Source of the DNA: Aminobacter aminovorans
GTDB taxonomy: Bacteria > Pseudomonadota > Alphaproteobacteria > Rhizobiales > Rhizobiaceae
Direction of reading: 5' to 3'
Assembly: GCF_900445235.1 (NCBI RefSeq)
Contig: NZ_UFSM01000004.1
Location: 1 to 64,000 of the forward strand
Length of the DNA: 64,000 nt
This document shows positions 32,547 through 53,557 of the stretch, one piece after another (the first letter of the stretch is position 1; the number at the start of each line of letters is the position of its first letter). Below the pieces are notes generated by a model. That model was given only the letters and a program-made list of their open reading frames with translations. It was not told where the DNA came from and ran no database searches. The translations under genes were made by a program, and so were the position numbers.

Positions 32547-32858
32547 TCAGGAACCTGTCGCTCTTTCATCCACTTCGTAGACGTGGCGCTCAAAGCGCTC
32601 GAGCAGCGTGTGCATCTGCTTGCGAGCGGCTTCGAAGTCGGGCGATGCTGCGCGTGCAGCCCGGTCGGCGTCATAAGCTTCCCTGGAGGCGAAGCCGCAT
32701 TCCCAGCGTATGTCAGGTCCGTTTCCTTCCGTCCGCACAAGGATGCGCCCGGGGTCCAGGCCGAGCTGGCGCCTGATCTCTGTCGCCTTGCGGCGTTGCT
32801 TCAGAACCTCATCCGCCTGATCCTCTCTGGCGAAATAATTGGTCGCTTCGACAATCAT
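32547..32858 (-). CDS. small protein resembling the dimeric alpha/beta-barrel (NIPSNAP/ABM-like) group
   Basis: A 103-residue soluble protein, MIVEATNYFA..., with an alternating pattern that resembles one ferredoxin-like alpha/beta-barrel domain and a Lys/Arg-rich helix (QADEVLKQRRKATEIRRQLG). I do not recognise a specific family. ATG 32858 follows GGAGGA at five bases; upstream in-frame starts to 32954 are not needed. It is divergent from the enolase-superfamily gene, with operator A about 90 bases upstream of its start, so it may belong to the same regulon. Confidence 0.65.
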   Translation of the reverse strand: MIVEATNYFAREDQADEVLKQRRKATEIRRQLGLDPGRILVRTEGNGPDIRWECGFASREAYDADRAARAASPDFEAARKQMHTLLERFERHVYEVDERATGS

Positions 32859-32931
32859 CTTTTCCTCCGCTGCCTTCCTACCACGCATCACCGCCGTTTC
32901 GGTCGGGGTGAAAAATCGATCCTGGGATCGC

Positions 32932-32970
32932 TTGACATCCAAAAATATGATCATAAAGTGTGATCACACT
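32932..32970 (+). promoter_or_regulatory. operator A with -35 box, upstream of the enolase-superfamily gene
   Basis: TTGACA at 32932-32937, then TGATCA at 32948 and TGATCA at 32961, 13 bases apart. The right half lies in the perfect palindrome AGTGTGATCACACT (32957-32970). TAAAGT (32954-32959) could be the -10 box at 16-base spacing. Identical over 19 bases to operator B. Confidence 0.7.
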
Positions 32971-33026
32971 AGATGATCGCATCGTACAGAGATGCCTCTG
33001 CGGTGACAAGGAAAAGGTAGAGACCG

Positions 33027-34187
33027 GTGCCAACGATCAAGTCCATCGAAACGCTCATTGTTCAACTGCCGACGCGGCGCGAGCACAAATGGGCCGGCCT
33101 GACCGAGGTCATCGGCCGCTATGTCATGGTCAAGATGACCGACAGCGACGGCCGGGTGGGCTGGGGCGAGGCCCCGGCGCTGAAGGACTGGGGCGGTGAG
33201 TTCGGCCGCTACTTCGGCGAGTCCGCCATGATCACCCGCAGCGTCATCGAAACCTACCTGGCGCCTGCCGTCATCGGCCTCGAACTCGGCAATTTCGCCG
33301 AGCTCCATGCCCGCATGGACGCCATCATCCGCGGCTATCCCTATTCCAAGGCGGCAGTCGAGTTCGCGGCCTATGACCTCGCAGGCCGCTGGCTGAACGT
33401 TCCCGTTCATACGCTGCTCGGCGGCAAGGCGCGTGACAAGGTCGCCATCACCCATTCGATCGGCCTGATCTCGATCGAGGAGGCAAAGGTCGAGGCAGCC
33501 AAGCTTGCTGCCGAAGGCATCAAGACGATCAAGGTCAAGATCGGCGTCGACCCGGCGCGCGACGTCAAGATGGTTGCGGCAGTCCGAGAGGCTGCAGGCG
33601 AGGCGATGGAAATCTGCGTCGACGCCAATGAAGGCTACAAGACGCCTGGAGAGGCGGTGCAGACCGTTCGCCAGATGGAAAAGTACCGGCTGAAATATGT
33701 CGAGCAGCCGGTGATGGGTATCGAGCGCATCGCCGAAGTCGGCCGCCGCATCGACGCGCCCGTCATGGCTGACGAGTCGGCATGGAATGCCCATGACGCT
33801 ATCCAGATCATCCAGAATGGCGGCATCCAGATCATCTCGATCTACACCACCAAGGCCGGTGGCCTGTACAAGGCGATGGAAGTCGGCGCGGTCTGCCGCG
33901 CCGCCGGCATCATCTGCAACGTCAATGGCTCGATCGAGACAGGCATCGGCAACCTCGCCAACGTCCAGGTGGCGGCTGCATCGCCGGCAGCGACGTTGTC
34001 CTGCGTCATCCCGATCTCGACACCGGCCGAGGCGCAACACGGCCAGGTTGGCGGCATCTATTACAAGGACGACCTTTTGGTCGAACCGATGCAGGTCGTA
34101 GACGGCGCGGTCGTCGTGCCGTCCGGGCCCGGCATGGGCATCGATGTCGACCTCGCCAAGGTCGAAAAATACCGCGTGCGCGACTGA
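33027..34187 (+). CDS. enolase-superfamily enzyme, muconate lactonising/cycloisomerase subgroup
   Basis: A 386-residue enzyme. The catalytic set is visible: K169 and K171 in KVK, metal ligands D199 (CVDAN), E226 (YVEQP) and D249 (MADES), and K276 (TTKAGG) on the opposite side. This is the MLE subgroup, which includes muconate cycloisomerases, o-succinylbenzoate synthases, N-acyl amino acid racemases and dipeptide epimerases. The reaction cannot be fixed from sequence. GTG start with AAGGAAAAGG upstream. First gene after operator A; a M24-family gene follows after 36 bases. Confidence 0.85.
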   Translation: MPTIKSIETLIVQLPTRREHKWAGLTEVIGRYVMVKMTDSDGRVGWGEAPALKDWGGEFGRYFGESAMITRSVIETYLAPAVIGLELGNFAELHARMDAIIRGYPYSKAAVEFAAYDLAGRWLNVPVHTLLGGKARDKVAITHSIGLISIEEAKVEAAKLAAEGIKTIKVKIGVDPARDVKMVAAVREAAGEAMEICVDANEGYKTPGEAVQTVRQMEKYRLKYVEQPVMGIERIAEVGRRIDAPVMADESAWNAHDAIQIIQNGGIQIISIYTTKAGGLYKAMEVGAVCRAAGIICNVNGSIETGIGNLANVQVAAASPAATLSCVIPISTPAEAQHGQVGGIYYKDDLLVEPMQVVDGAVVVPSGPGMGIDVDLAKVEKYRVRD

Positions 34188-34223
34188 GCGCCGGTCAAGA
34201 AACTCAAGGAGAGGAACGAAATC

Positions 34224-35396
34224 ATGCGGGCAGAAATCGTAGCCAAGCAGGTGAGGGCAATGGCCGAGCATGGGCTCGACGCCATCATCTGCTCGTCGCC
34301 CGAGAACTTTGCCTATACCACAGGCTTCGTCGTGCCGTCTCAGCCGCTGATCCGTCACCGCCATGCGATGACCATCGTCACAGCTGACGGCCGCACCGCG
34401 ATCTTCGGCGTCGACATGGAAGCATCGACGATCAAGCGCCGCTTGCCCGACATGCCGGCCCGTATCTGGGCCGAATTCTCCGACGATCCGATGCTGGTGC
34501 TGGCCGATCAGCTCGCCGGCCTCGGCCTTGCCAAGTCGCGTATCGGCCTCGAGATGGACTATCTGCCGGCAGGCGATTTCGCCCGTCTGATCGCGGCGAT
34601 GCCAGGCGCGCGCTTCGAGCATGCCGAACCGATCCTGGCGCGGCTGCGCCAGATCAAGACGGCCGAAGAGATCGCACTGCTCAGCAAGCTGTCGCGCATC
34701 GCCGACCAGGCGATCACCGACACGCTGGCCGTGGTCGATGCCGGCGACTCCGAGATGGACATTGCCGGGCACTTGACCCGCAACGTCTATTCGCTCGGCG
34801 CCGAACACTTCAAGCTTCTGATCGTCGCCACCGGCGAGCGCTCGGTACTGCCCAATGTCGGCCCGTCCGATCGCGTCCTCAAGCGCGGCGATGTCTGCCG
34901 CGTCGAGATCTTCTCGGTCATCAATGGCTACCAGGCCGGCGTCTGCCGCACCGCCATTGTCGGCGAAGCGCCGCCCATGGCCGACAAGATCTGGGCTCAC
35001 CTGGTCGAGTGCAAGTATGAGATCATGGAGAAGGTGAAGCCGGGTGCGAGCTGCCGCGAGATCTACGACGCCTTCATCGCCAAGCTCGCCAAGCTCAACC
35101 TGCCGCCGATCTCGTTCGTTGGCCACGGCATTGGCCTGCACCTGCACGAAGACCCCTATCTCGGCCTGACGCCGGTGCTTGGCAAGCCGGGCAGCGATGC
35201 GCCGCTGGAAGAGAACATGGTGCTTGGCTTCGAGCCGCTCTGCTACGACACCGGCTATGGCTACGGCATGCAGAACAAGGACATGCTTTTGGTGACGTCG
35301 AAGGGCTCGGAGCTGTTGTCCGATTACGCCGACACCGACAAGCTGATCCTCTGCGGCACCGCCAGGCAAGGCGGCAAGGTCAAGGCGGTGGCCTAA
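34224..35396 (+). CDS. M24-family (creatinase/prolidase-fold) protein lacking metal ligands
   Basis: A 390-residue pita-bread-fold protein with the N-terminal creatinase domain (about 1-145) and the M24 domain. The usual first ligands, Asp in D-x-G and the second Asp before RT, are replaced (VEIFSVINGYQAGVCRT), and the late Glu is replaced in GYGMQNKDMLLV. The central histidine remains (VGHGIGLHLHEDPY). It is therefore probably metal-independent, like creatinase. Creatinase's catalytic His region is not obvious. Reaction unknown; a C-N hydrolase is likely. The RBS is AGGAGAGG. Confidence 0.8.
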   Translation: MRAEIVAKQVRAMAEHGLDAIICSSPENFAYTTGFVVPSQPLIRHRHAMTIVTADGRTAIFGVDMEASTIKRRLPDMPARIWAEFSDDPMLVLADQLAGLGLAKSRIGLEMDYLPAGDFARLIAAMPGARFEHAEPILARLRQIKTAEEIALLSKLSRIADQAITDTLAVVDAGDSEMDIAGHLTRNVYSLGAEHFKLLIVATGERSVLPNVGPSDRVLKRGDVCRVEIFSVINGYQAGVCRTAIVGEAPPMADKIWAHLVECKYEIMEKVKPGASCREIYDAFIAKLAKLNLPPISFVGHGIGLHLHEDPYLGLTPVLGKPGSDAPLEENMVLGFEPLCYDTGYGYGMQNKDMLLVTSKGSELLSDYADTDKLILCGTARQGGKVKAVA

Positions 35397-35549
35397 GCGC
35401 TACTGCTTGCGAAATGGCGGCCGGGGTGATTGTTGGCCCGGCCGTCGCGTTCCGCTCGGAAGAGTGTGCGAATGCTCGGATATCGCCCGCCGTCACGGAC
35501 CGGCGACGCGATCTGGAGGGTCCGTGGGTAAAGCATTGGGTGGAGCTGC

Positions 35550-36989
35550 ATGCGTACGCTGATCGAAAATCTGAACTTCGCTTTCACAGTCGACAAGAAC
35601 GACACGGTGCTGCGCAATGCGAGCGTGGTGGTCGAGAACGACCGCATCGCCGACATCGGAACGGCCGGCGAGGTGGCATCGCGCCACAAGGGCACGAGCT
35701 TCGACAAGGTCATCGACGGCACCATGCTGGGCATCTGCCCTGGCTTCGTCGACAGTCACGTGCATCTGTCCGAGACCCTTTCCCGCGCGGTCTTCCCTGA
35801 CAATCTCAACACCCGCGCCTGGGTGTTCCACTGGGCCAAGCCCTTCTACGCCCACATAACGGAGGAAGACGAATACTGGGGCGCGCTGCTCGGCATCACC
35901 GAGATGCTGCGCTGCGGCACCACCTGCTTCCTCGACATGGGCTCGCAATACGATCCCGGCATCGTCATCCGCGCCATGGACAAGACCGGCATCCGCGGCA
36001 TCACCGGCCGCCACGCCGCCGACAATCGCCCGTCGGAGTTGCCGCGCGGCTGGACCGAGGAGATGGCCGAGCATCATTTCTTCCCCGATGCGCAAACGGC
36101 GCTGAAGGTGCTCGAGGAAAACGTGCTGCGCTACAACAACACGCTCGACGGTCGTGCCCGTTGCTGGGTCAACATCGAGGGCAAGGAGCCCTGCAGTCTC
36201 GAACTGCATGTCGGTGCCGTGGCGCTGGCCGAGAAGCTGGGCGTCGGCACGACCTACCACCTGGCGACCTCCATCGAGGAGGCCAAGGTCTGCGAAAGCA
36301 AATATGGCTGCTGGCCGATCACCCGCGTCGACAATGCCGGCGGCATCCGCAAGAACCTGGTCATCGCCCACGGCGCGGCCGTGTCGGACGAGGAGGTCAA
36401 GCTTCTGGCCGAACGCGGCGCCAGCGTCGCCTTCTGCCCGTGCTCGTCATTCAAGCTCGGCAAGGGCGCGACGTCGATCGGCAAATACCCCGAGATGGTC
36501 AGGGCCGGCGTCAAGGTCGGCCTCGGCACCGACGGTGTCTCGGCCGCCGGCAACATGAACCTGATGCGGCAGATGCTTGTCGTTGCCGGCATGTTCAAGG
36601 ACGCGCGGCTGAAGCCCGACATCTTCACTGCCCGCGATGCGCTGCGTGCCGCCACCATCGAGGGCGCGCGCGCCCTGATGTGGGACGACGAGATCGGCTC
36701 GCTGGAGATCGGCAAGAAGGCCGACTTCATCCTGTTCGATCTCGACCATGTCGAGTGGACGCCGTTCTACGATCCGCTGCAGGCGCTGGTGTTCTCGGCC
36801 TCGACGGCCTCGATCACCCAGACCTGGGTCGACGGCAAGGCGGTCTATGTCGACGGCAAGGTGCAGGGTGTCGACGAGGCGGGCATACGCCGCAAGGCGC
36901 GCGAACTGGCAGCCGCCGCCGTGGTGCGCGCTGGCCTGCACGAGGAAGACGTCGAGACGACCACGACGCTGTACGACGAAGGCAACTGA
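35550..36989 (+). CDS. amidohydrolase, ATZ/TRZ (chlorohydrolase/deaminase) family
   Basis: A 479-residue TIM-barrel amidohydrolase. Ligands: H70 and H72 (SHVHLSE), His in TYHLATSIEE, His in IAHGAAV, and Asp in LGTDGVS. This family deaminates or dechlorinates aromatic nitrogen rings (guanine, S-adenosylhomocysteine, triazines, hydroxyatrazine). The start ATG 35550 follows GGTGGAG. It lies 153 bases after the M24 gene and probably shares the transcript from operator A. Confidence 0.85.
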   Translation: MRTLIENLNFAFTVDKNDTVLRNASVVVENDRIADIGTAGEVASRHKGTSFDKVIDGTMLGICPGFVDSHVHLSETLSRAVFPDNLNTRAWVFHWAKPFYAHITEEDEYWGALLGITEMLRCGTTCFLDMGSQYDPGIVIRAMDKTGIRGITGRHAADNRPSELPRGWTEEMAEHHFFPDAQTALKVLEENVLRYNNTLDGRARCWVNIEGKEPCSLELHVGAVALAEKLGVGTTYHLATSIEEAKVCESKYGCWPITRVDNAGGIRKNLVIAHGAAVSDEEVKLLAERGASVAFCPCSSFKLGKGATSIGKYPEMVRAGVKVGLGTDGVSAAGNMNLMRQMLVVAGMFKDARLKPDIFTARDALRAATIEGARALMWDDEIGSLEIGKKADFILFDLDHVEWTPFYDPLQALVFSASTASITQTWVDGKAVYVDGKVQGVDEAGIRRKARELAAAAVVRAGLHEEDVETTTTLYDEGN

Positions 36990-37061
36990 GGGCTGGACCC
37001 TGCCGCGTCTCGCGTTGCGGAAGGGTGCGCCACCAGCTATGAAGACATGCGTTCAAGAGGC

Positions 37062-37252
37062 TGCATGGGAGAGATCGGCCGCTGCGAGATGACACCGGCC
37101 GACGCCGACGGAGCAACCCCCCAGGAAACTCTCAGGCAAAAGTGACCATGCAGTTGAACGATCTGGAGAGAGGCGCCTCGAGCGTCCACCGAAGGGGAAA
37201 GCCGCACCGGCAAGGCCGGCGCGGTTAAGCTCTCAGGTACAGCGACAGATTG
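37062..37252 (+). promoter_or_regulatory. tandem glycine riboswitch
   Basis: Two consecutive aptamers of the gcvT type. Aptamer 1 runs from GGGAGAG (about 37067) through CCGACGGAGCAACC to ACTCTCAGGCAAAAGTGACC (ends about 37149). Aptamer 2 runs from GGAGAGAGGCGC (about 37164) through CACCGAAGGGGAAAGCCG to AGCTCTCAGGTACAGCGACA (ends 37248). The linker is about 14 bases. Each has the conserved GGAGAG / CTCTCAGG closing pair. It controls a flavin oxidase, malate synthase G and GlcG rather than a glycine-cleavage operon. Confidence 0.92.
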
Positions 37253-37303: not shown

Positions 37304-38557
37304 ATGCCCCATATTGCCGTTATCGGCGCCGGTATCACCGGCGTCACCACTGCCTATGCCCTTCTGGAGCGCGGCTACACCGTCACTGTCGTCGATCGCC
37401 AGCGTTATGCCGCGATGGAAACGTCGTTTGCCAATGGCGGCCAGCTGTCGGCCAGCAACGCCGAGGTCTGGAACCACTGGTCGACCTTGCTCAAGGGCAT
37501 CAAGTGGATGCTGCGCAGTGATGCGCCGCTGCTGATGAACCCCCGGCCAACCTGGCACAAATATGCCTGGCTGGCTGAGTTCGTCTCAAACATCGCACAT
37601 TACCGCGACAACACGGTGGAGACGACGCGGCTGGCGATTGCCGCGCGCAAGCACCTGTTTGCGATTGCTGAGCGCGAGAACATCGACTTCGACCATGTCC
37701 GTCGCGGCATCCTCCATTTCTACTGGGACAGACCGAGTTTCCAGCACGCGCTGAAGGTCAATGCGATGCTGGTCGAGGGCGGTCTCGACCGCCGGCCGGT
37801 GACGGCTGAGGAGGTGAAGTCGATCGAGCCGACGTTGAATGGCGATTTTCATGGCGGCTTCTATACGCCGTCGGACTCGACCGGCGACATCCACAAGTTC
37901 ACCTTCGGCCTCGCCAACGCCTGCGAGCGGCGCGGTGCGCGCTTCGTCTTCGACGCCAATGTCGACCGTATCGCCCGGGATGGCATGTTCTGCATCGGCT
38001 ACACGACCGACGGTGCTGACGGCCAGCCCGACTATAGGGTCGTCGAGGCCGACGGCATCGTCATCTGCGCCGGTTCCGCCAGCCGCCATTTCGCAGCGAT
38101 GCTCGGCGACCGGGTCAATGTCTACCCGGTCAAGGGCTATTCCATCACCGTGCATCTCGACGACGAGCGCAGCCAGGCTGCTGCACCATGGGTCAGCCTG
38201 CTCGACGATCGCGCCAAGATCGTCACCAGCCGCCTTGGCGCCGGGCGCTTCCGGGTTGCCGGCACCGCCGAGTTCAACGGCATGAATCGCGACATCCGCG
38301 ATGACCGCGTCAGGCCGCTGGTCGACTGGACACGCATGCTGTTCCCGGATGTCGACACCAACAGGGTCGTGCCCTGGGCAGGTCTCAGGCCGATGATGCC
38401 GAACATGATGCCGAGGGTCGGCAAGGGCCGTCAGCCCGGCGTGTTCTACAATACCGGCCATGGTCATCTCGGCTGGACGCTGTCGGCGGCAACGGCCCAG
38501 ATGGTCGTGGAGACCATTTCGGGCGAGTTCCGCACCGACGCTGCACTTGCAGCCTGA
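37304..38557 (+). CDS. DadA-like FAD-dependent D-amino acid/glycine oxidoreductase
   Basis: A 417-residue DAO-family flavoprotein of the DadA type. The FAD motif is GAGITG at residues about 8-13, followed by ETSFANGGQLSASNAEVW, typical of D-amino acid dehydrogenase small subunit, and the C-terminal NTGHGHLGWTLSAATAQ. The glycine riboswitch directly upstream and malate synthase G directly downstream point to oxidation of glycine (or sarcosine/D-amino acids) to glyoxylate. ATG 37304 follows GCGGAGAG. Confidence 0.85.
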   Translation: MPHIAVIGAGITGVTTAYALLERGYTVTVVDRQRYAAMETSFANGGQLSASNAEVWNHWSTLLKGIKWMLRSDAPLLMNPRPTWHKYAWLAEFVSNIAHYRDNTVETTRLAIAARKHLFAIAERENIDFDHVRRGILHFYWDRPSFQHALKVNAMLVEGGLDRRPVTAEEVKSIEPTLNGDFHGGFYTPSDSTGDIHKFTFGLANACERRGARFVFDANVDRIARDGMFCIGYTTDGADGQPDYRVVEADGIVICAGSASRHFAAMLGDRVNVYPVKGYSITVHLDDERSQAAAPWVSLLDDRAKIVTSRLGAGRFRVAGTAEFNGMNRDIRDDRVRPLVDWTRMLFPDVDTNRVVPWAGLRPMMPNMMPRVGKGRQPGVFYNTGHGHLGWTLSAATAQMVVETISGEFRTDAALAA

Positions 38558-38572
38558 CCGGGAGTTATGACG

Positions 38573-40786
38573 ATGAACATGATGAACCGGATTGACGACA
38601 GTGTCTTCGTCCATGGCCTTTCTGTTGCGCGCGTGCTCCACGACTTCGTGGTCTCGGAGGCTCTGCCGGGGACGGGTGTGGATGCGGATGCGTTCTGGGA
38701 GGGTTTTGCCGCAATCGTGCATGATCTGGCGCCGAAGAACCGGGCGCTGTTGGAAAAGCGCGACGACTTCCAGCTCAAGCTCGATGCCTGGTACCGCAAG
38801 CACGGCGCCCCGCACGACATGGCCGCCTACAAGGCGTTCCTGAGCGAGATCGGTTATCTGGTCCCCGAGGGGCCAGCCTTTGCGGTGACAACCGAGAATG
38901 TCGATCCGGAGATCGCCACCGTCGCCGGGCCGCAGCTTGTCGTGCCGGTGATGAATGCGCGTTATGCGCTGAACGCCGCCAATGCGCGCTGGGGTTCGCT
39001 CTATGACGCGCTCTACGGCACCGATGCGATCCCGGATGCCGACGGCGCCGAGAAGACCAAGGGCTACAATCCCAAGCGTGGCCAAAAGGTCATTGCCTGG
39101 GCCAAGGCGTTCCTCGATCAGTCGGCACCGCTGGCTCAAGGCAGCTGGAGCGAGGTGACCGGGCTTGCGGTCGAGGGCGGCGCGCTCAAGCTTGCGACTG
39201 CGTCCGGTTCGGTTGCACTGAGCGATGCAAAACAATTCGCCGGCTATCGCGGCGAGGCAAAGAATCCAGACGCGGTGCTGCTGGTCAAGAACGGCCTGCA
39301 TGTCGAGGTGGTGGTCGACAGGGACAGTGCGATCGGCAAGACCGATCCGGCCGGTATCTCCGACATGATCCTGGAGTCCGCTCTCACCACCATCCAGGAC
39401 TGCGAGGATTCGGTTGCGGCAGTCGACGCCGAAGACAAGGTCACCGTCTACCGCAACTGGCTCGGCCTGATGAGGGGCGATCTCGCGGAAAGCTTCGACA
39501 AGGGCGGCAAGCTTGTCACCCGCAAGCTGAACGCCGACCGTTCCTACACCGGTGCCGATAGCAAGACCGTTTCGCTGCCCGGCCGCTCGTTGATGCTGGT
39601 GCGCAATGTCGGCCACCTGATGACCAATCCCGCGATCCACGACCGCGACGGCCATGAGGTGCCCGAAGGCATCATGGATGCGGCGATCACCGCGCTGATT
39701 GCGCTTCATGACGTCGGTCAGAACGGGCGTCGCATGAATTCCCGCGCCGGCTCGATGTATGTGGTCAAGCCGAAGATGCATGGTCCCGAGGAAGTTGCCT
39801 TTGCCGTCGAGATCTTCGACCGCGTCGAGCGGCTTGTCGGCATGCCGCGCAAGACCATCAAGATGGGCATCATGGACGAGGAGCGGCGCACCACGATCAA
39901 CCTCAGGGAATGCATCCGTGCCGCCAAGGAACGCGTGGTGTTCATCAACACCGGCTTCCTCGACCGCACCGGCGACGAAATCCACAGCTCGATGGAAGCC
40001 GGCCCCATGGTGCGCAAGGGCGACATGAAGCAGGCGCCATGGATCAATGCCTATGAGGCCTGGAACGTCGACACCGGGCTCGAATGCGGCCTGTCGGGCC
40101 ATGCCCAGATCGGCAAGGGCATGTGGGCGATGCCCGACCTGATGGCAGCGATGCTGGAGCAGAAGATCGCCCACCCACGCGCCGGCGCCAACACCGCCTG
40201 GGTGCCGTCGCCGACGGCAGCGACGCTTCATGCCACCCACTACCACAAGGTCGACGTGCATGCCGTCCAGGCCGAGCTGAAGAGCCGGCCCAAGGCGCGG
40301 CTCGACGACATCCTGTCGGTGCCAGTCGTCGTTCGTCCCAACTGGACGCCCGACGAGATCCAGCGTGAGCTCGACAACAATGCGCAGGGCATCCTGGGTT
40401 ATGTCGTGCGCTGGATCGACCAGGGCGTCGGCTGCTCCAAGGTTCCCGACATCAACGACATCGGGCTGATGGAAGACCGGGCCACCTTGCGCATCTCGTC
40501 CCAGCACATCGCCAACTGGCTGCGCCACGACGTCTGCTCGCACATCCAGGTGATGGATTCGCTGCAGCGCATGGCGGCGATCGTCGACCGGCAGAATGTC
40601 GGTGATCCGCTCTACAAGCCGATGGCGCCCGAGTTCGACCAGTCGACCGCCTTCCGCGCCGCCTGCGACCTCGTCTTCGAAGGCCGCGCCCAGCCCAATG
40701 GCTACACCGAACCGGTTCTCCACAAGCGCAGGCTCGAGCTCAAGGCGAAGCGCCGCATTGCGTCACAACCCAAGATTACGAATTGA
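38573..40786 (+). CDS. glcB: malate synthase G
   Basis: A 737-residue monomeric malate synthase, standard length: glyoxylate plus acetyl-CoA gives malate. Recognised by [19 protein letters not shown], the active-site region [29 protein letters not shown] and the [20 protein letters not shown] segment. ATG 38573 suits the GGGAG site better than ATG 38567. It is 15 bases after the oxidase gene, so glyoxylate can be used at once. Confidence 0.95.
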
Positions 40787-40796
40787 GGAAGCAAAC

Positions 40797-41251: not shown

Positions 41252-41290
41252 TTGACAATTTACAGTGTGATCATAAAGTGTGATCAAACT
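41252..41290 (+). promoter_or_regulatory. operator B with -35 box, upstream of the opine-dehydrogenase-like gene
   Basis: TTGACA at 41252-41257, TGATCA at 41268 and again at 41281 (13-base step). The right half is in AGTGTGATCAAACT, one mismatch from the palindrome in operator A. Distances from TTGACA are the same as in A. Confidence 0.7.
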
Positions 41291-41391
41291 GATTGATGAC
41301 AATCAATTGGCGCGAGGAACGGGGAGGAGTACCCGTTTCGAGCATGAGGTCGTGCGGCCCAATAGCCGTACCTCGGCCCCCGGAGGAGAGA

Positions 41392-45391: not shown

Positions 45392-45589
45392 ATGCCGTTC
45401 GTCGTCGTAGAGATGTGGGAGGGGCGCACTGTCGAGCAGAAGCGCAACCTCGTGAAAGCCATTACCAAGGCCATGGTCGAGGAAGCCGCCTGCAAGCCTG
45501 ATCACCTGCATGTGGTGATCCATGAGACGCCCAAGGACAGCTGGGGTCGCGGCGGCGTGCTCGGCATCGACATGGTGGAGCACAAGTGA
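45392..45589 (+). CDS. 4-oxalocrotonate tautomerase-family protein
   Basis: A 65-residue tautomerase: after Met removal it begins with Pro1, the catalytic base (MPFVVVEMWEGRT), and has a helix TVEQKRNLVKAITKAMV and a strand HVVIHETPKDSWGRGG. Such enzymes interconvert keto and enol forms of dicarboxylates or dehalogenate. RBS GAGAGGAG. Its stop overlaps the next ATG (TGATG). Confidence 0.9.
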   Translation: MPFVVVEMWEGRTVEQKRNLVKAITKAMVEEAACKPDHLHVVIHETPKDSWGRGGVLGIDMVEHK

Positions 45590-46654: not shown

Positions 46655-48007
46655 TCAGCCGAGCGCCAGGCCTTCAAGCCCGTCGAGTTCGGCGTAGGAA
46701 GGCAGTGAGGTCGAAATCGGTGTCCCATTGCGGATGACGATGCGGTTGCTCTCCGCGCGCGAAAGCACCTCCGACCAGCTGCGGCCTTCATAGAGAATGA
46801 AATCAGCGGGCTGCCCCTCGGCGATGCCGCCCTTGGCTCCGAGACCCATGACCTCGGCCGGGGTCGTGGTCACGGCCCTGATCCAGTCGCCACTCGGGTG
46901 GTCGAGATGTAGTACGCGCGTGCCGAGGCGGAACGTGTCGAGCATGTCGAGATCGCCGTAGGAATGGAACGGGTCGCGCGTGTTGTCGGAGGCGAGCGCC
47001 ACCGCGATGCCGCGCTTTTTCATCTCGTGCAGCAAGGTCACGCCGCGCCATCTCGGGGTCGCGCCATTGCGGCGGTCCTGCAGATAGAGGTTGCAGGTCG
47101 GCAGCGCCACGACGGCAACGCTCGCGGTCGCGACCGTGTCCAGCGTTGCATCGACGATTGCCTCATCCTGCACCGCCAGTGAACAGCAATGTCCGACCAG
47201 CACCTTGCCGGCAAATGATGCGCGTAGCTTGGCCTCGGCGATGCGCCGAAGCGCGTCGGCTGTTGGGTCGGAGGTCTCGTCGGCGTGGAAGTCGAGATCC
47301 AGGCCATTCCTGACCGCGGCAGCAAACATGCGGTCGAGCAGGTGGTCGATGTCGGGTGCAGGATAGGCAACCGCCCCAAGCGTACCGCCGGCGGCAGCCA
47401 CCCGCCTGGTCATGCCATCGAGCAAGGTGTCGTCGCGGGCCATGTCGATGGGAAACAGGCAGGAGGCCTGCAAGTCGATGCGACCGCGCCAATGCTGCCG
47501 GAGTTCAGAGAACACCGGCCAGGAAATGGCGTCCTGCGGCGGCTGCGAGTCGACGTGGGTGCGTATCGCCGAGGTGCCGTGGTGGAAAGCCGAGCGCAAG
47601 GCGAAGTCCATGCGCTTGAAGACATCCCCGGCAGACCAGTTGGCGGTCCGGTCGGCGCGTGTTGCCGCCAGTGCGCCGTCGAATGTCCCGTTCGCCGCCG
47701 GCGTGCGCGGCAGGATATGGCCCTTGTCCAGATGGGTGTGGCAGTCGACGAAGGTGGGCAGGGCGACGCGACCGCCTACGTCTATGGAAAACAGGCCGTT
47801 GTCAATTGTTTCAGTGGGTTGGCTGCGCGCGGGAGTTGTTGCCAATATCCTGCCGTGCTCTACAGTCAGGTCAGCAAGAAAGAACCCTGCGGCATCCATG
47901 GCACTCCAGTTTGTCACCGCACTGTTGAGACGCACGTTGCGCAGCACGTACCGGCTCATCCTTGCGCCGTCGGCGAGCTGTTCGCGCAATACAAGCTGTG
48001 CAGTCAT
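46655..48007 (-). CDS. cytosine deaminase-like amidohydrolase
   Basis: A 450-residue amidohydrolase of the CodA group. Ligands: H90 and H92 (CHTHLDKGH), His in DFHADETSDP, His in LVGHCCSLAVQ, and Asp in ALASDNTRDPF. CodA-type enzymes deaminate cytosine, and some accept creatinine, isoguanine or other cyclic amidines. ATG 48007 follows AGGAGAGG; a later Met (47959) lacks a site. The promoter with operator D lies about 110-150 bases upstream. Confidence 0.87.
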   Translation of the reverse strand: MTAQLVLREQLADGARMSRYVLRNVRLNSAVTNWSAMDAAGFFLADLTVEHGRILATTPARSQPTETIDNGLFSIDVGGRVALPTFVDCHTHLDKGHILPRTPAANGTFDGALAATRADRTANWSAGDVFKRMDFALRSAFHHGTSAIRTHVDSQPPQDAISWPVFSELRQHWRGRIDLQASCLFPIDMARDDTLLDGMTRRVAAAGGTLGAVAYPAPDIDHLLDRMFAAAVRNGLDLDFHADETSDPTADALRRIAEAKLRASFAGKVLVGHCCSLAVQDEAIVDATLDTVATASVAVVALPTCNLYLQDRRNGATPRWRGVTLLHEMKKRGIAVALASDNTRDPFHSYGDLDMLDTFRLGTRVLHLDHPSGDWIRAVTTTPAEVMGLGAKGGIAEGQPADFILYEGRSWSEVLSRAESNRIVIRNGTPISTSLPSYAELDGLEGLALG

Positions 48008-48118: not shown

Positions 48119-48155
48119 TGATCACAATATGAGATCACAGATTGCGGCCTGTCAA
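48119..48155 (-). promoter_or_regulatory. operator D with -35 box, between the deaminase gene and gntR
   Basis: On the plus strand TGATCA begins at 48119 and AGATCA at 48132 (13-base step). On the minus strand TTGACA (48155-48150) lies 18 bases before the operator, placing it over the deaminase promoter. Operators C and D share TGATCACANTATGAGATCA. Confidence 0.7.
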
Positions 48156-48258: not shown

Positions 48259-49002
48259 ATGCGGATAGACAAGACTGAGGACGCCAGCAACGGCGGCACC
48301 GAAACAGCCAAGAAGGAGCGCGGGCATGTCCACGGGCATGTGCTGCGTTACATGCGCCGCGGCTTGATGGTCGGTGCCTTCCTGCCCGGCCAGGTGATGA
48401 GCCTGCGCAAGCTGGCCGCCGGCTTCGGCACCAGTCCCATGCCGGTGCGCGAAGTGCTGAGCCGCCTGGTTGCGGCCAATGCGCTCGAGGAAACCAAGGG
48501 CGGTTCGGTGCGTGTGCCGCGGCTGAGTCCGGACAAGCTGAGCGACCTTTTTGCCGTGCGCGAGATGCTTGAGGGAATGGCCGCCGAGCTTGCCGCCAAG
48601 AGGGCGTCGCCGGCGCTGATCAGCGAACTCGCTGCGATCAACAAGCAGCTCCTGGTGGCGATCGAAAAGCGTGACATCCTCAACTGCCTTTCCTTCAACC
48701 AGAAATTCCATTTCACGCTCTATGAAGCGGCCGCGTCCGATGTGCTGATGCCGCTGATCGAGTCGCTGTGGCTGCAGTTCGGCCCGACAATGTACATGTC
48801 TTTGCTGATCCCCTCGATGCCATGGAACGCGTCGGACCATGAGGACATTCTTGCGGCGCTGAAAGACGGCAATGCCGCCGCTGCCAAGAAGGGCATCGTC
48901 CACGACATCCGCACCACCTGCAAGGCGCTGCTCAGCGTCGCCGGCTCGCAAGGCATCGAGCTGCCTTTCGCGCAGGGGGCGGATCTGCAATTCGATTACT
49001 GA
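48259..49002 (+). CDS. GntR-family regulator with FCD domain
   Basis: A 247-residue FadR-subfamily regulator: winged helix at residues about 22-88 (SLRKLAAGFGTSPMPVREVLSRL is the DNA-reading part) and an all-helical FCD effector domain at about 92-225 (REMLEGMAAELAAKR, SFNQKFHFTLYEAA). Such proteins usually repress until a carboxylate or similar ligand binds. The gene lies next to operator D, and three more copies of that operator precede neighbouring operons, so it is the probable regulator of all four. The FCD metal position commonly Asp is Asn here (NQKFH). Confidence 0.9.
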   Translation: MRIDKTEDASNGGTETAKKERGHVHGHVLRYMRRGLMVGAFLPGQVMSLRKLAAGFGTSPMPVREVLSRLVAANALEETKGGSVRVPRLSPDKLSDLFAVREMLEGMAAELAAKRASPALISELAAINKQLLVAIEKRDILNCLSFNQKFHFTLYEAAASDVLMPLIESLWLQFGPTMYMSLLIPSMPWNASDHEDILAALKDGNAAAAKKGIVHDIRTTCKALLSVAGSQGIELPFAQGADLQFDY

Positions 49003-49027: not shown

Positions 49028-49495
49028 ATGGTGGGAAAAGTTGAACAGAACCTTGCTCGCCTGGGCATCAGCCTGCCGGCGACCGTTGCGCCAGCTGCCA
49101 ACTACGTGCCGGCCCGCCGGCTGGGCAACCAGGTCTATGTCTCGGGCCAGGTTCCAGCCGAAGGCGGCAAGGACAAGTTCACCGGCAAGCTCGGGTCCGA
49201 TTTCACCGTCGAGGAGGGCCAGGCCGCGGCGCGGCTCTGCGCCGTCAACATCCTGGCACAGCTCAAGCAGGCGCTGGACGGCGATCTCGACCGCGTTGTA
49301 GGGGTCATACGTCTTGGCGGCTTCGTCAATGCCGAGCCTGACTTCAGGGATCATCCCAAGGTCATCAACGGTGCCTCCGACCTGATGGTCGAGGTGTTCG
49401 GCGAGGCTGGCCGTCATGCCCGTGCCGCCGTCGGTTGCTACTCGCTGCCGCGCAATGTGCCGGTCGAAGTGGACGCGATCTTCGAGGTCAACTGA
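49028..49495 (+). CDS. RidA/YjgF family protein
   Basis: A 155-residue Rid protein, somewhat longer than RidA. The conserved end HARAAVGCYSLPRNVPVEVDAIFEV holds the substrate-binding Arg. The family hydrolyses reactive enamine/imine intermediates or acts in ring-opening pathways such as RutC. RBS GGGAGGA. It lies 25 bases after gntR and two bases before the CobW-type gene. Confidence 0.9.
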   Translation: MVGKVEQNLARLGISLPATVAPAANYVPARRLGNQVYVSGQVPAEGGKDKFTGKLGSDFTVEEGQAAARLCAVNILAQLKQALDGDLDRVVGVIRLGGFVNAEPDFRDHPKVINGASDLMVEVFGEAGRHARAAVGCYSLPRNVPVEVDAIFEVN

Positions 49496-49497
49496 TC

Positions 49498-50496
49498 ATG
49501 TTGCCTGCCGCTGCGGCGACCGACGACAGAATTCCGGTCCACGTGCTGACCGGCTTCCTCGGAAGCGGCAAGACGACTTTCCTGCGGCACCTTCTCGGCG
49601 AGCCGGATCTCGCTGATACGGCCGTGATCATCAACGAGTTCGGCGAAGTCGGGCTCGACCATCTGCTGGTGCGCGAGGTTGCCGAAGACGCCGTGCTGTT
49701 GTCTTCGGGCTGCCTGTGCTGCGCCGTGCGCGATGATCTCGTATCCACTCTGGCGGACCTTCTGGCGATGGTTCGTCGTGGCGAGGTGGCGCCGTTCCGC
49801 CGGGTCGTGGTGGAGACCACGGGCCTCGCCGACCCCGCGCCGATCATGCAGGCAGTGATGAGCGACATCAAGCTCCGTCGCGGCTATCGGGCGGGCAGTA
49901 TCGTTGCCACCGTCGACGGCGTCAGCGGCGCCACCAGCATCGGCAGTTTTGCCGAGGCCGTACAGCAGGTTGCGCTCGCCGACTGCGTGGTGATCACCAA
50001 GTCTGACCTTGTCGAGCCATGGCGACTGGATGCGCTTGGCCAGGAGGTCGGCAAGTTGAACCCGCAGGTTCGCCAGCTTGTTTCCAGCCGCAGTTCCATG
50101 CCCGGCACCGGTGATATCTTCCGTTACGACGAGGACTGGGAACCGCGTCACTTCGAGATGGCCGACACGCCGATGGCGGGGCGGCACAGCGATGGCATCG
50201 AGACCTTTGCCGTCCAGGTCGACAGGGAGGTCGACTGGGCAGCCTTTGTCGACTGGCTCGAGCTGCTGCTTGCCGGCCGCGGTCAATCGATCCTGCGTGT
50301 CAAAGGGTTGCTGGCGGTCAAGGGCGATCCCCGGCCGGTGGTCATCCACGGTGTCCAGCACGTTGTCTACCCGCCCGAATATTTGCCGCGCTGGCCGCAG
50401 GATACGGCGCGCGGCTGGCTGGTGTTCATCGCGCGCAACCTGAGCCGAAGCGCGATTGAACGCTCATTGCCGAGCACCTTCGCCGCTGCGAACTGA
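49498..50496 (+). CDS. CobW/ZNG-type G3E GTPase, probable metallochaperone
   Basis: A 332-residue G3E GTPase: Walker A GFLGSGKT at residues 19-26, the metal motif C72-L-C74-C75, ETTGLADP, and a C-terminal CobW domain (LLAVKGDPRPVVIHGVQHV). Family members insert zinc or other metals into client enzymes. Three metal-dependent amidohydrolases in this region are plausible clients (inference). ATG is two bases after the Rid gene. Confidence 0.87.
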   Translation: MLPAAAATDDRIPVHVLTGFLGSGKTTFLRHLLGEPDLADTAVIINEFGEVGLDHLLVREVAEDAVLLSSGCLCCAVRDDLVSTLADLLAMVRRGEVAPFRRVVVETTGLADPAPIMQAVMSDIKLRRGYRAGSIVATVDGVSGATSIGSFAEAVQQVALADCVVITKSDLVEPWRLDALGQEVGKLNPQVRQLVSSRSSMPGTGDIFRYDEDWEPRHFEMADTPMAGRHSDGIETFAVQVDREVDWAAFVDWLELLLAGRGQSILRVKGLLAVKGDPRPVVIHGVQHVVYPPEYLPRWPQDTARGWLVFIARNLSRSAIERSLPSTFAAAN

Positions 50497-50838
50497 CTGC
50501 GCTCGTTTCGCGTTTCCCAGGCAATTCCAGGATGTTCATTGAACTGTGATCGCGCTCGCCCGGCAATGGGCGGGGTTGCGTCGTCTCGACGCGTGGTGAA
50601 TCCGCCAGCAATTTCCGATGCTTGCCGCAGCGGCAGGGATTGCCGGTCGAAGCATCGGTCGGACACGTAAATTCGCGCTTCGCCAGTTCCGATTCATCGC
50701 TTGACAATCATGAAATGTGATCACACTATGAGATCAAGAATGAGGTTTGAGAGCGAAAGCTGTCGCGCCTCGTTCCGGGGAGAGGCAGGCCTTCGGGCCA
50801 TAGGGGCGCCGGCATGGTGCTCGTTAGGGAGGAGAGAA
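50497..50838 (+). other. 342-base intergenic region upstream of the NMT1-type transporter
   Basis: Nothing coding is convincing here. It holds the operator C promoter (50701-50736) and a leader of about 100 bases ending in GGGAGGAGAG, the transporter's ribosome-binding site. I see no intrinsic terminator after the CobW-type gene. Confidence 0.6.
50701..50736 (+). promoter_or_regulatory. operator C with -35 box, upstream of the ABC transporter operon
   Basis: TTGACA at 50701-50706, TGATCA at 50718 and AGATCA at 50731 (13-base step), with the local sequence TGTGATCACACTATGAGATC. It resembles D in the second half and A in the first half. A repressor here would cover the -35/-10 region. Confidence 0.7.
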
Positions 50839-51831
50839 ATGTTGTACGCCACAGGTCTCATTCGCGGCACGGCGCTCATCGCCACGGCTGCTGTCGCCAC
50901 CGTTCTTGCCAGTCACAGCGCCATGGCGGAAGACGTCAACGTCCGCTTCAGCTGGAAGCTGAAGGGCGAGTATGGCTTCTTCTATCTCGGTGAGAAGAAG
51001 GGTCTCTACAAGGATGCCGGCGTGACGCTGAAGCTCGGCGAAGGCGCCGGCTCGCAGGCGGCACTCGGTTCGCTGATCCAGGGCCAGGAAGACGCCGTCA
51101 TTCTGCCCGGCATCTTTGCCATCTCGGCGATCCAGAAGGGCATGCCGGTCAAGATTATCGCGCTCTACCAGCCGGAGTCGCCGATCGCGCTGATCTCGCA
51201 TCCTGACAAGGCGGTGACGACCCCGAAGGATCTCGAAGGCAAGACCATTGCGCACGCCGTCGGCGAGACAGGCACTTCCTATCTCGGCGCCTTCTGCGAG
51301 ATCAACCAGATCGATTGCAGCAAGGTTTCCAAGGTCCAGATGGACTCGCAATCGCGCGTGCCGCAGTTCCTGCAGAAGCAGGTCGACGTCGTTAGCGTCT
51401 ACAAGACCAACGATCTGCCCGTACTCGAAGACAAGACCGGCACCAAGTTCCCGACCCTTGACCTGACCGAATTCGGCCTGGCAGTGCCGGGCATGGCGGT
51501 TGTCGCCAGCGATGATGGCATCGCCAAGAAGGGCCCGGCTCTCCGGAGCTTCCTCGCCGCCAACGCCAAGGCGATCGAGATGACGAAAGCCGATCCGGCT
51601 GCCGCCACTGCAGCGCTCAAGGCCGTCTGGCAGGCGGGTCCGTCCGACAAGGTGGTGCAACAGCAGATCGAGGCAACCTCGGCATCGATCCATTCGCCAG
51701 CCGGCACACCGATCGGCCACATCGATGAGAAGGCGATTGCCGACGCCATCAAGCTGATCGGCAGCGTCGAGGAAATCGGCGACGCCAAGCCGATGTCGTC
51801 CTTTTATACCAATGAACTTCTGACGCAGTGA
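50839..51831 (+). CDS. NMT1/THI5-type ABC transporter substrate-binding protein
   Basis: A 330-residue periplasmic protein with a Sec signal (residues 1-30, ending AMA-ED). The mature start VRFSWKLKGEYGFFYLGEKKGLYKDAGV is typical of the NMT1/THI5-like group that binds pyrimidine-like, riboflavin or sulfonate ligands. ATG 50839 follows GGAGGAGAG. First gene after operator C; its ligand is presumably the inducer or substrate of the regulon. Confidence 0.9.
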   Translation: MLYATGLIRGTALIATAAVATVLASHSAMAEDVNVRFSWKLKGEYGFFYLGEKKGLYKDAGVTLKLGEGAGSQAALGSLIQGQEDAVILPGIFAISAIQKGMPVKIIALYQPESPIALISHPDKAVTTPKDLEGKTIAHAVGETGTSYLGAFCEINQIDCSKVSKVQMDSQSRVPQFLQKQVDVVSVYKTNDLPVLEDKTGTKFPTLDLTEFGLAVPGMAVVASDDGIAKKGPALRSFLAANAKAIEMTKADPAAATAALKAVWQAGPSDKVVQQQIEATSASIHSPAGTPIGHIDEKAIADAIKLIGSVEEIGDAKPMSSFYTNELLTQ

Positions 51832-51838
51832 GGCTACG

Positions 51839-52669
51839 GTGGCGAGCACGGATGTAATCGGCGCCGCTCGGGCGCAGAAGAAGCAAGGCAAGGGCATGAG
51901 CAGGAAAAAATCACGTGGGCCATGGCTGGAACGCTATTCGGCGCTGATCCTGGCGGTTGTGCTGCTTGGCGCCTGGCAGGTGCTGGTCCCGCTTTCCGGG
52001 CTTTCGGAGTTCGTTCTGCCGACGCCGCTGGCAATCGCCACGCGGATCGTCAACGAGATCCCTCTGCTCGCCACCCACGCCTATGTCACGCTGTTCGAAG
52101 TCGTCGCAGGCTTTGCCATGGCCGTGCTGATCGGCATCCCGCTGGCGCTGGCGATCTTTTATTCCAGGGCTTTCGAGCGTGCGATCTACCCGATCCTGGT
52201 GGCACTGCAGACGGTGCCCAAGGTGGCGCTGGCGCCGCTGCTTGTGCTTTATCTCGGCTATGGCTGGGCGCCCAAGATCACGCTGGCCTTCCTGATCTCG
52301 TTCTTCCCGATCGTCATCTCGACGGTTGTCGGCCTGCAGTCGCTCGACAAGAACCTGGTCAACCTGGTCCGCTCGATGGGCGCCAGCGAATGGCAGACCT
52401 TCTTCAAGGTCCGTCTGCCGGCAGCTCTGCCCAACATCTTCGGCGGCTTCAAGGTTGCGGTGTCGCTGGCGGTCATCGGTGCAGTCATCGGCGAATATGT
52501 CGCTGCCGAACGTGGCCTCGGCTATCTGCAGCTTCAAGCCAACTCGCTGTTCGACACGACGCTCAACTTCGCCACCGTGGTGACGATTTCCGGGCTTGGC
52601 GTGATGCTTTACTTCATCATCGACACCATCGAAGCCCGCGTCACCTATAAGCGCGACGCCGCCAAGTAG
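51839..52669 (+). CDS. ABC transporter permease (SsuC/ThiX type)
   Basis: A 276-residue permease with six predicted membrane segments and the EAA-type loop VRSMGASEWQTFFKVRLPAALP. It starts seven bases after the binding-protein stop with GTG; an ATG at 51896 is an alternative start that removes 19 hydrophilic residues. It pairs with the ATPase 87 bases downstream. Confidence 0.9.
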   Translation: MASTDVIGAARAQKKQGKGMSRKKSRGPWLERYSALILAVVLLGAWQVLVPLSGLSEFVLPTPLAIATRIVNEIPLLATHAYVTLFEVVAGFAMAVLIGIPLALAIFYSRAFERAIYPILVALQTVPKVALAPLLVLYLGYGWAPKITLAFLISFFPIVISTVVGLQSLDKNLVNLVRSMGASEWQTFFKVRLPAALPNIFGGFKVAVSLAVIGAVIGEYVAAERGLGYLQLQANSLFDTTLNFATVVTISGLGVMLYFIIDTIEARVTYKRDAAK

Positions 52670-52724
52670 CCAGGCCGCCAAATAGCCAGGCCGCAAGTAA
52701 ATCAGCCGGCCGCTTGTGCGGCCG
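52667..52724 (+). repeat. 16-base tandem duplication and hairpin between permease and ATPase genes
   Basis: TAGCCAGGCCGC occurs at 52667-52678 and again at 52683-52694, a 16-base tandem duplication that includes the permease stop codon. It is followed by CGGCCGC / GCGGCCG (52707-52713 and 52718-52724) around TTGT, a 7-base-pair hairpin without T-run. Confidence 0.6.
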
Positions 52725-52756
52725 AGCAACGACAACAGGTTCAGTGAGGCAATCCC

Positions 52757-53557
52757 ATGAGTGCCACTACCCAGATGGGCGCGGCGGTCGACATTTCGCG
52801 GCTTTCCAAAATCTACAAGACACGCGAGGACGACGACGTCCTTGCTCTCGACAAGATCGATCTCAAGATCGAGCCCGGCAGCTTCGTTGCCGTCGTCGGA
52901 CCCAGCGGTTGCGGCAAGAGCACGCTGCTCTCGCTTCTCGCGGGCCTGACGCCTGCCTCGACCGGCAGCATCGCCATCGACGGCGACGGCGTCAGCAGGC
53001 CGCACCCGAAGACCGGCGTGGTCTTCCAGTCCGATCTTCTGCTCTACTGGCGCACCGTGCTCGACAACATCTTGCTGCCGATCGAGATCAAGAAGCTCGA
53101 CGTCGCCAAGTACCGTGCCCGCGCCGAGGAACTGCTTGCCCAGGTTGGGCTCGAAGGCTTCGGCAACAAATATCCCTCCGAGCTTTCCGGCGGCATGCGC
53201 CAGCGCGTGGCGATCTGCCGGGCGCTGATCCAGGAGCCGGGCCTGCTGCTGATGGACGAGCCCTTCGGCGCGCTCGACGCACTGACCCGTGAACAGATGA
53301 TCATGGATTTGCAGTCGATGTGGCTGCGCCTGCGCAACACGGTGCTGTTCATCACTCACGGCATCGACGAGGCCGTGTTCCTCGCCGACCGCGTCCTGGT
53401 GATGTCGCCCCGTCCGGGCCGCGTCGACCTCGACCTCAAGATCGACCTGCCCAGGCCTCGTTTGTGGAGCAAGACCCACGAGGACAAGGAATACCACGCC
53501 TATGTCCGGCAGATCCGGGCGATCTTCGAAGCCAAGGGCATTCTCGTCGCCCACTAG
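52757..53557 (+). CDS. ABC transporter ATPase (SsuB/TauB type)
   Basis: A 266-residue ATPase: Walker A GPSGCGKS at residues about 54-61, Q-loop VFQSDLLLYWRTV, signature LSGGMRQR, Walker B LLLMDEPFGALD, switch His in ITHGIDEA. Completes the NMT1-type importer. The ATG at 52757 follows GTGAGG. Confidence 0.92.
   Translation: MSATTQMGAAVDISRLSKIYKTREDDDVLALDKIDLKIEPGSFVAVVGPSGCGKSTLLSLLAGLTPASTGSIAIDGDGVSRPHPKTGVVFQSDLLLYWRTVLDNILLPIEIKKLDVAKYRARAEELLAQVGLEGFGNKYPSELSGGMRQRVAICRALIQEPGLLLMDEPFGALDALTREQMIMDLQSMWLRLRNTVLFITHGIDEAVFLADRVLVMSPRPGRVDLDLKIDLPRPRLWSKTHEDKEYHAYVRQIRAIFEAKGILVAH

Follow-up and report, generated by a model that had tools for sequence, protein, structure and literature searches.

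Which compound could be handled by the products of a cassette of about 20 genes in Aminobacter, in which four transcription units share one GATC operator? The cassette lies mainly between positions 32547 and 53557 of the window, a 64,000-nucleotide stretch of Aminobacter aminovorans (bases 1-64000 of contig C4 of the 5.89-Mb genome G000). An initial annotation had listed here three amidohydrolases (below AH1, AH2 and the deaminase), an isochorismatase, an M24 protein, an opine dehydrogenase, a dehydrogenase resembling DpaA, an enolase, a tautomerase, a Rid protein, a CobW protein and an importer, and had proposed a single system for a cyclic nitrogen compound. Scans with Pfam and NCBIfam profiles recovered genes of every named type in their places, and added a VOC domain at the C-terminus of the isochorismatase (the fusion is called IsoVOC below) and a full pntAB set after the importer. 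The operator and the co-inheritance of the genes support the view that they form a single co-regulated set which, most likely, serves to break down such a compound. We read the cassette as a modular catabolic regulon for an N-heterocycle and put the probability of this reading at roughly 0.6.

The shared operator postulated in the initial annotation proved to be real, its sites being related to each other and conserved in relatives. The sequence TGTGATCACA, with at most one mismatch, occurs five times in the window and never outside four intergenic regions: before the enolase gene (33027), before the opine dehydrogenase gene (41392), between the deaminase gene and the gene of the FCD regulator (48007 and 48259), and before the receptor gene of the importer (50839). 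The exact 10-mer TGTGATCACA is found at two places only in the whole genome, both within the cassette. The extended operator TGTGATCNNANNNNNNGATC is matched exactly five times in the genome, each time within the cassette; allowing one mismatch adds 23 matches, of which four fall in these operator regions and 19 lie on other contigs. In each of the four regions a TTGACA hexamer stands directly upstream of the site: at 32932 for the enolase unit (operator at 32949..32978, where TGTGATCNNANNNNNNGATC is exact on both strands), at 41252 for the opine dehydrogenase unit (41266..41298), at 48155 on the minus strand for the site between the deaminase and the regulator (48119..48139), and at 50701 for the importer unit (50706..50736). 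Such an arrangement would be expected if a repressor bound over the -10 region, which the operator probably covers. No operator site precedes the glycine riboswitch unit or pntAB.

Conservation of the operator was assessed in 59 loci, 56 from a scan of genome contigs by DpaA alignment, which clusters without DpaA would escape, and three from plasmids; a match in an upstream stretch with at most one mismatch was counted as a site. Sites were found upstream of the genes for the enolase (29 of 35), the FCD regulator (36 of 42), the receptor (29 of 33), the deaminase (21 of 26) and the opine dehydrogenase (26 of 47), and upstream of all 21 copies of a small gene divergent from the enolase gene. 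They are rare before the genes for DpaA (6/57), the permease (3/35), M24 (2/43), Rid (1/33) and CobW (1/38), and absent before those for AH1 (0/39), AH2 (0/42), a PhyH-like protein (0/39), the tautomerase (0/55), IsoVOC or VOC (0/54), the oxidase (0/15) and the ATPase (0/37). In total 175 of 718 upstream stretches carry a site versus 2.4 expected from base shuffles, a count inflated by the relatedness of the loci and by divergent genes that share one site, so that the stretches are not independent. The cassette operator is present in most proteobacterial loci.

The genes are co-inherited and adjacent in relatives, rather than scattered singly. A search with DpaA of 101 genomes of relatives, among them the window's own, gave 21 matches at E <=1e-3. 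Nine have E <1e-180, a match with 34% identity in G089 follows at 1e-34, and the other eleven lie near 1e-4 to 1e-3. AH1 (at E up to 1e-100) and IsoVOC (at E up to 1e-50) were detected in precisely the nine genomes with strong DpaA matches, all of them Aminobacter; in the genus's tenth genome, which is 81% complete, no strong match turned up. The system is sparse in the class and the phylum, since DpaA was found at 1e-10 in two of 385 genomes sampled from the class, namely the window's own and G469 (where the context differs), and at 1e-20 in one of 398 sampled from the phylum, again the window's own. Among plasmids, DpaA is matched in 16 records, ten of them from Aminobacter. The DpaA-like protein of G469 (48%; L018, 12561-13481) is encoded in a different setting, with an ATP-binding cassette (ABC) ATPase relative nearby and an adjoining open frame that by eye resembles a flavin adenine dinucleotide (FAD) oxidoreductase.

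Thirty-nine of the 56 scan loci are well covered, having 6 kb or more of upstream and 4 kb or more of downstream sequence. Among these, the tautomerase is found in 38, VOC in 37, the opine dehydrogenase in 35, the enolase and M24 in 34 each, AH1 in 32, AH2 in 30, the PhyH-like protein, the FCD regulator and CobW in 29 each, Rid and the receptor in 25 each, the deaminase in 19, the glycine-type oxidase in 13, a molybdenum hydroxylase in nine and TctC-type receptors in six; in all 56 loci the deaminase is present in 23 and the opine dehydrogenase in 45. Five families, the DpaA-like enzyme, the tautomerase, VOC, the enolase and M24, occur together in 34 of the 39 well-covered loci and in 40 of the 56. 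By record title, these 40 loci comprise 35 from Pseudomonadota, two from Chloroflexota, two from Actinomycetota and one unassigned; the titles name Alpha-, Beta- and Gammaproteobacteria besides the two other phyla. Loci L060 and L065 bear the record names Bordetella parapertussis and Klebsiella pneumoniae; both are metagenome bins, and the names are probably wrong. The gene order is largely kept: DpaA adjoins AH2 in 39/39 cases, AH2 the PhyH-like gene in 35/36, the opine dehydrogenase DpaA in 43/45, and the enolase M24 in 37/41. Adjacency is lower for the tautomerase and IsoVOC (41/50) and for FCD and Rid (13/30), where at least some misses stem from start-codon choice or VOC-only loci. Like the operator counts, the gene counts are drawn from related loci.

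The amidase part of IsoVOC behaves differently from its VOC part. Of the 51 loci with VOC, 37 have the amidase fused to it and all 37 have AH2, whereas VOC stands alone in 14 and none of these has AH2. An isochorismatase-type amidase as a universal core member was thus rejected. On a tree of DpaA for the 51 loci the AH2/fusion label changes seven times, at least three of them on well-supported branches. The tree was built quickly and has long branches, and L039, L042, L069, L073 and L076 were omitted from it since VOC was not seen there; the AH2 and fusion labels are identical row by row and so change jointly by construction, and three changes with good branch support do not suffice to test significance. 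Because AH2 and the amidase come and go together while the core families persist, the five families may be regarded as the core and AH2 with the amidase as a putative detachable ring-opening module. Loci without AH2 more often carry other genes: a molybdenum hydroxylase of the xanthine-dehydrogenase type is present in 8/14 of them vs 4/37 of those with AH2, and TctC-type receptors in 10/14 vs 2/37. Relatives of PcaD and CMD lie inside the cluster in L056, L058 and L061; in L061 the PcaD relative scores above the cut-off of its model, and at the edge there is a BenA-like Rieske protein that stays below its own cut-offs and has a relative in L056.

The sequences of the core enzymes retain many of the expected active-site residues (genes are on the plus strand unless stated otherwise). 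The enolase-superfamily enzyme (33027..34187; PF13378/PF02746) keeps K169, K171, D199, E226, D249 and K276 in 41/41 rows; a KxK, D, E, D, K pattern is the rule for the muconate-lactonizing enzyme (MLE) subgroup of this superfamily, to which it is assigned. The 4-oxalocrotonate-type tautomerase (4-OT; 45392..45589; PF01361) has invariant Pro and Arg in 56/56 rows. The DpaA-like dehydrogenase (42477..43364; PF16924) is nearest by profile to the structures of dipicolinate synthase subunit A (PDB 2rir/3d4o), and scores below the cut-offs of the DpaA models (200 of 261 and 180 of 320 bits); Arg186, after the second Rossmann strand, is kept in 60/60 rows, and an Arg in this place marks the NADP type. 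The M24 protein (34224..35396; PF00557/PF01321) has E, G, H, E, K at the metal-ligand positions D, D, H, E, E in 44/44 rows, which suggests that it is metal-free, and it matches the creatinase structure 1chm (E 9e-15). Creatinase and ectoine hydrolase are M24 proteins that are themselves metal-free, so the loss of the metal site does not choose between them.

In IsoVOC (45586..46578; PF00857+PF00903) the amidase residues D18/K119/C152, which correspond to the D, K, C triad of isochorismatase-type cysteine hydrolases, and the VOC residues H219/H276/E322 are constant in all 41 full-length fusions, to which the alignment counts were confined. Its scores are below the cut-offs for RutB and biuret hydrolase (80.8 of 378 and 77.1 of 370 bits). 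AH2 (43364..44710), of the hydantoinase/dihydropyrimidinase/allantoinase type by family profiles, keeps the metal site HxH, carboxylated-Lys position, H, H, D in 36/36 rows and has L-hydantoinase 1gkr as its best PDB match (E 4.5e-62). Since the curated cut-offs for allantoinase (273 of 358 bits) and D-hydantoinase (272 of 393 bits) are missed, AH2 is probably a member of the hydantoinase family other than these named enzymes.

Outside the core and this pair, the TRZ/ATZ-deaminase-type AH1 (35550..36989; PF01979; PRK07228 255 bits, below the cut-off of 522) keeps the metal residues HxH, H, H, D in 39/39 rows. The Glu after the third His is catalytic in deaminases of this type; in an alignment with methylthioadenosine/S-adenosylhomocysteine deaminase, AH1 has Thr (37 rows) or Ser (two rows) at this position. 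The opine-dehydrogenase-family enzyme (41392..42480; PF02317) is nearest in the PDB to 1bg6, CENDH (E 1.2e-53), and has the Arg of the NADP-type motif in 45/46 rows. The optional aminohydrolase of the cytosine deaminase family (46655..48007, minus strand) passes the model PRK07583 (NF005759) with 587.7 bits against a cut-off of 403, the name being an annotation that suggests rather than fixes its substrate. No Pfam family matches the protein encoded at 44707..45390, even at E 10, and one of six orthologues gave a chance-level match. Its model (predicted local distance difference test 86) has PhyH-type dioxygenases as best but weak structural matches (template-modelling score 0.29-0.46, root mean square deviation 9-10): the seven top PDB hits, at E 8e-4 to 5e-3 with one below 0.001, are all non-heme oxygenases, of the PhyH type or others. 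The HxD...H iron site was not found in the alignment, where H47 is the sole invariant His in 24 rows, so this protein, whose fold may be remotely PhyH-like, probably lacks the iron site.

The remaining genes under the operator are those for the GntR/FCD transcription regulator (48259..49002; PF07729+PF00392), a Rid-family protein (49028..49495; PF14588, 112.6 bits), a CobW-type metallochaperone GTPase (49498..50496; PRK11537 173 bits and CobW 141 bits, both below cut-off), and an importer with a periplasmic receptor of the SsuA/NMT1 type (50839..51831; TIGR01728 57 bits, cut-off 163.5; no PDB match at 1e-5), an ABC permease (51839..52669; profile match) and an ABC ATPase (52757..53557; PF00005). 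The small conserved protein of about 100 residues divergent from the enolase (32547..32858, minus strand; alternative ATG at 32954) has orthologues in the clusters, the shorter ones of 98-107 residues; it matches no family at 0.001, and two orthologues gave only sub-cut-off, chance-level matches.

Two accessory units lie in or beside the cassette. A glycine riboswitch (37056..37158; RF00504, 63.9 bits) precedes the genes for an FAD enzyme of the D-amino-acid dehydrogenase/glycine oxidase type (37304..38557; PRK12409 735.6 bits, cut-off 494), malate synthase G (38567..40786; PF01274 and other domains) and an HbpS/GlcG-like protein (40797..41228; PF03928, scanned as 40596-41228). The available text of PMC2211319 describes a glycine riboswitch before malate synthase as a known pairing. 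The idea that the pathway feeds glycine into this unit still stands in part: the riboswitch is present at all ten oxidase loci tested (L016, L028, L033, L034, L035, L037, L040, L044, L045 and L078; the oxidase loci L024, L025, L026, L038 and L017 were left out), but Shinella has no such unit. The opine dehydrogenase is present in all 13 oxidase-bearing scan loci. In Phyllobacterium the unit is in pieces, while the rest of the cassette matches over its full length. The glycine unit was rejected as the core of the system, being absent in Shinella and not under the operator.

The pntAB transhydrogenase genes follow the importer (53759..56941). The segment 53767-57000 is a 98.6% copy over 3234 bp of the chromosomal pair (G000:C1), while Shinella and Phyllobacterium have another pntAB type (41-53% protein identity) in the same place. 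The genes also stand beside the cassette on plasmids of Aminobacter MDW-2 and MSH1 and in a second Shinella, and in Nocardioides (L074) they are next to DpaA; most scan loci end before the pntAB place. A chance neighbour or housekeeping duplication is disfavoured, because a different type occupies the same place elsewhere. Several other Aminobacter contigs stop about 10.5-11 kb past DpaA, and the pntAB repeat is perhaps the cause.

These data are consistent with the following scheme. The FCD regulator would act as a repressor that silences the units at the shared operator lying over their promoters, and binding of the substrate or an intermediate would open the regulon. The substrate would be taken in by the NitT/TauT-type ABC importer, and the optional cytosine-deaminase-type enzyme may strip an exocyclic amino group. 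AH2 would open the ring of a cyclic amide, imide or ureide; the resulting linear amide or ureide would be hydrolysed by the N-terminal amidase domain of IsoVOC. We hold this ring-opening pair to be the most likely step, and imides or dihydroxypyridines, pteridines or pyrazines and other cyclic ureides are all candidate rings. The core, comprising the DpaA-like NADP enzyme, 4-OT, VOC, the MLE-type enolase and the metal-free M24 protein, would process the remainder. In the largest group of loci the opine-dehydrogenase-type NADP enzyme may make or split an N-(carboxyalkyl) amino acid, and any glycine released would pass to the riboswitch-controlled oxidase (and malate synthase). PntAB may balance NADP(H), CobW may supply metal and Rid may clear imines.

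Several observations weigh against the regulon as drawn here. No operator was found at the genes examined in twelve loci (L039, L055, L059, L065, L067, L068, L069, L071, L074, L075, L076 and L077); several of these are short contigs, and the Chloroflexota and actinobacterial loci L067, L068, L074 and L075 are among them. The core is incomplete in five of the 39 well-covered loci (L064, L065, L066, L069 and L076), L076 having DpaA alone and L069 DpaA and the tautomerase, although contigs of metagenome-assembled genomes may hide genes. The opine dehydrogenase is absent from 8/14 loci without AH2, and that of L063, which also lacks AH2, is a distant relative 8 kb away. The lack of the glycine unit in Shinella counts here as well, as does the truncated cassette copy on plasmid pAA03, which has no pntAB. 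The usual direction of PntAB is NADPH supply, which suits a reduction better than an oxidative, glycine-releasing cleavage by the opine dehydrogenase. Finally, the scheme gives no chemistry to the VOC, PhyH-like, M24 and AH1 steps.

The readings that compete with this regulon differ mainly in the ring that is opened. The initial annotation had offered as one reading a route like that of creatinine or N-methylhydantoin, in which the deaminase, the cyclic amidase and a carbamoylsarcosine-type amidase yield an amino acid turned over by the flavin oxidase. The cytosine-deaminase-family enzyme, a hydantoinase and an isochorismatase-type amidase are indeed all present, the glycine riboswitch adjoins their genes, and M24 lacks a metal site as creatinase does; against this, the deaminase is absent from six of the 13 glycine-unit loci within the DNA examined, one of which, L044, also lacks AH1, AH2 and the amidase within 20 kb, and the core genes, the opine dehydrogenase and DpaA are left without a role. 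The missing deaminase and the unaccounted core weakened this route, which was rejected as the leading explanation and which we consider very unlikely. The remark made at the same time, that the enolase, opine and DpaA genes point to another type of ring, fared better, as these genes are widely shared, unlike the deaminase, and nine of the 39 well-covered loci further add a molybdenum hydroxylase. A cyclic imide or dihydroxypyridine carboxylate, with AH2 as an imidase, the amidase as a half-amidase and the core acting on an unsaturated dicarboxylate through the tautomerase and the MLE-type enzyme, is the least improbable of the alternatives, though still doubtful. It agrees with the strict AH2-amidase pairing, with the 4-OT and muconate-lactonizing types in the core, and with the molybdenum hydroxylases and TctC-type receptors in nine and six of the 39 loci, but it leaves the opine dehydrogenase, the glycine riboswitch unit and the amino-removing enzyme unexplained, and the window's cassette has no molybdenum hydroxylase.

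If the substrate were instead a fused ring such as a pteridine or pyrazine, the deaminase, AH2 and the amidase would strip a pyrimidine or ureide ring from it, and the core with the opine dehydrogenase would turn a pyrazine carboxylate into an N-carboxymethyl amino acid and then into glycine and a keto acid. One scheme would then cover AH2 and the amidase as a detachable module, and the likeness of the DpaA-like enzyme to dipicolinate synthase subunit A and the molybdenum hydroxylases of loci without AH2 would find a place in it. The opine dehydrogenase in 13/13 glycine-unit loci also speaks for it, but as this enzyme occurs in 45/56 loci anyway, such co-occurrence is expected, and the pyrazine or pterin chemistry is a construction of the present analysis; we regard the fused ring as unlikely. 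We hold to be similarly improbable a modular pathway for fused or simple azines (pteridine or pyrazine type) shared across phyla, in which the hydantoinase and the VOC-fused amidase would strip a ureide ring, the DpaA-like NADP enzyme would act on the ring that remains, the metal-free creatinase-fold protein would cleave a C-N bond, and the opine dehydrogenase would split an N-carboxymethyl amino acid to give glycine and a keto acid. The cassette might also make or detoxify a compound instead of feeding on it, since the NADP-type motifs of the opine dehydrogenase and DpaA together with PntAB suit an NADPH-driven reduction. As the operator also governs an importer, several hydrolases are encoded in these units and a glycine-disposal unit lies nearby, there is very little to be said for this option.

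Comparison with known systems yields partial likenesses. The hyu and reductive pyrimidine sets, as far as the available text of PMC3546935 describes them, likewise combine a hydantoinase-family cyclic amidase with an amide or ureide hydrolase or an ABC importer nearby; the second hydrolase of the cassette, however, is of the isochorismatase type and fused to VOC, not a carbamoylase, and the core genes, the opine dehydrogenase and the DpaA-like gene are not in the sets described there. The glycine riboswitch-malate synthase pairing in the available text of PMC2211319 recurs in the cassette, where the riboswitch is joined to a D-amino-acid-dehydrogenase gene inside this cluster. The available portions of papers on metformin and on Aminobacter hydantoinases (PMC9699525, PMC3546935, PMC9800807) make no mention of this gene set. 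In agreement with the initial annotation, which knew of no described pathway with this set, our searches of the open-access literature brought up no published account of it among the titles and passages covered. Variovorax JS1663 was followed as a lead to a known pathway and dropped, no paper on it being found in these searches.

Degradation of creatinine and N-methylhydantoin shares with the cassette the deaminase, hydantoinase and amidase families and a metal-free creatinase fold, but the deaminase of the cassette is optional and the enolase, tautomerase, VOC and DpaA-like genes have no counterpart in that route. Cassettes of the ectoine hydrolase DoeA/EutD contain a homologue of the M24 protein, a weak match: DoeA itself (TIGR02993) was rejected, as M24 scores 85.4 bits, far below the cut-off of 613, and the other ectoine genes are not in the cassette set. 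The two dehydrogenases share family and cofactor domain with DpaA and CENDH-type opine dehydrogenase; the unmet DpaA cut-offs, a different setting and the lack of a recognisable DpaB among the genes scanned separate the cassette from dipicolinate synthase.

Additional copies and neighbours of the cassette were also recorded. In A. aminovorans a 534-kb record carries the DpaA of the cassette, while plasmid pAA03 (L017, NZ_CP015008.1 28442-61326) has a second cassette copy that lacks the enolase, M24 and the importer; genes for TniQ, TniB and Mu-type transposases flank this copy at either end, and it looks mobile. In Aminobacter sp. MSH1 (L105, 20559-22842) genes for an extra receptor and for an amidase interrupt the stretch from IsoVOC to the deaminase. 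A MocR-type regulator (GntR plus aminotransferase) adjoins the cassette at 31028-32545 of the window; in its place MDW-2 has an aminotransferase-family gene and Shinella HZN7 none. To the left, on the minus strand (24395-30905), lie genes for a thiamine pyrophosphate enzyme, an FAD oxidoreductase, a SnoaL-like protein, a permease and an NMT1-type receptor, perhaps another catabolic set. The window further contains a urease alpha subunit (17604-19316) and a periplasmic receptor (Peripla_BP_5; 10806-12116).

The occurrence of the five-gene core across phyla implies a common environmental compound whose breakdown, as far as we have seen, is without assigned genes. The pathway may involve new chemistry, as several members of the cassette have altered active sites: the M24 protein is metal-free, the deaminase relative is without the catalytic Glu, and the PhyH-like protein probably lacks an iron site.

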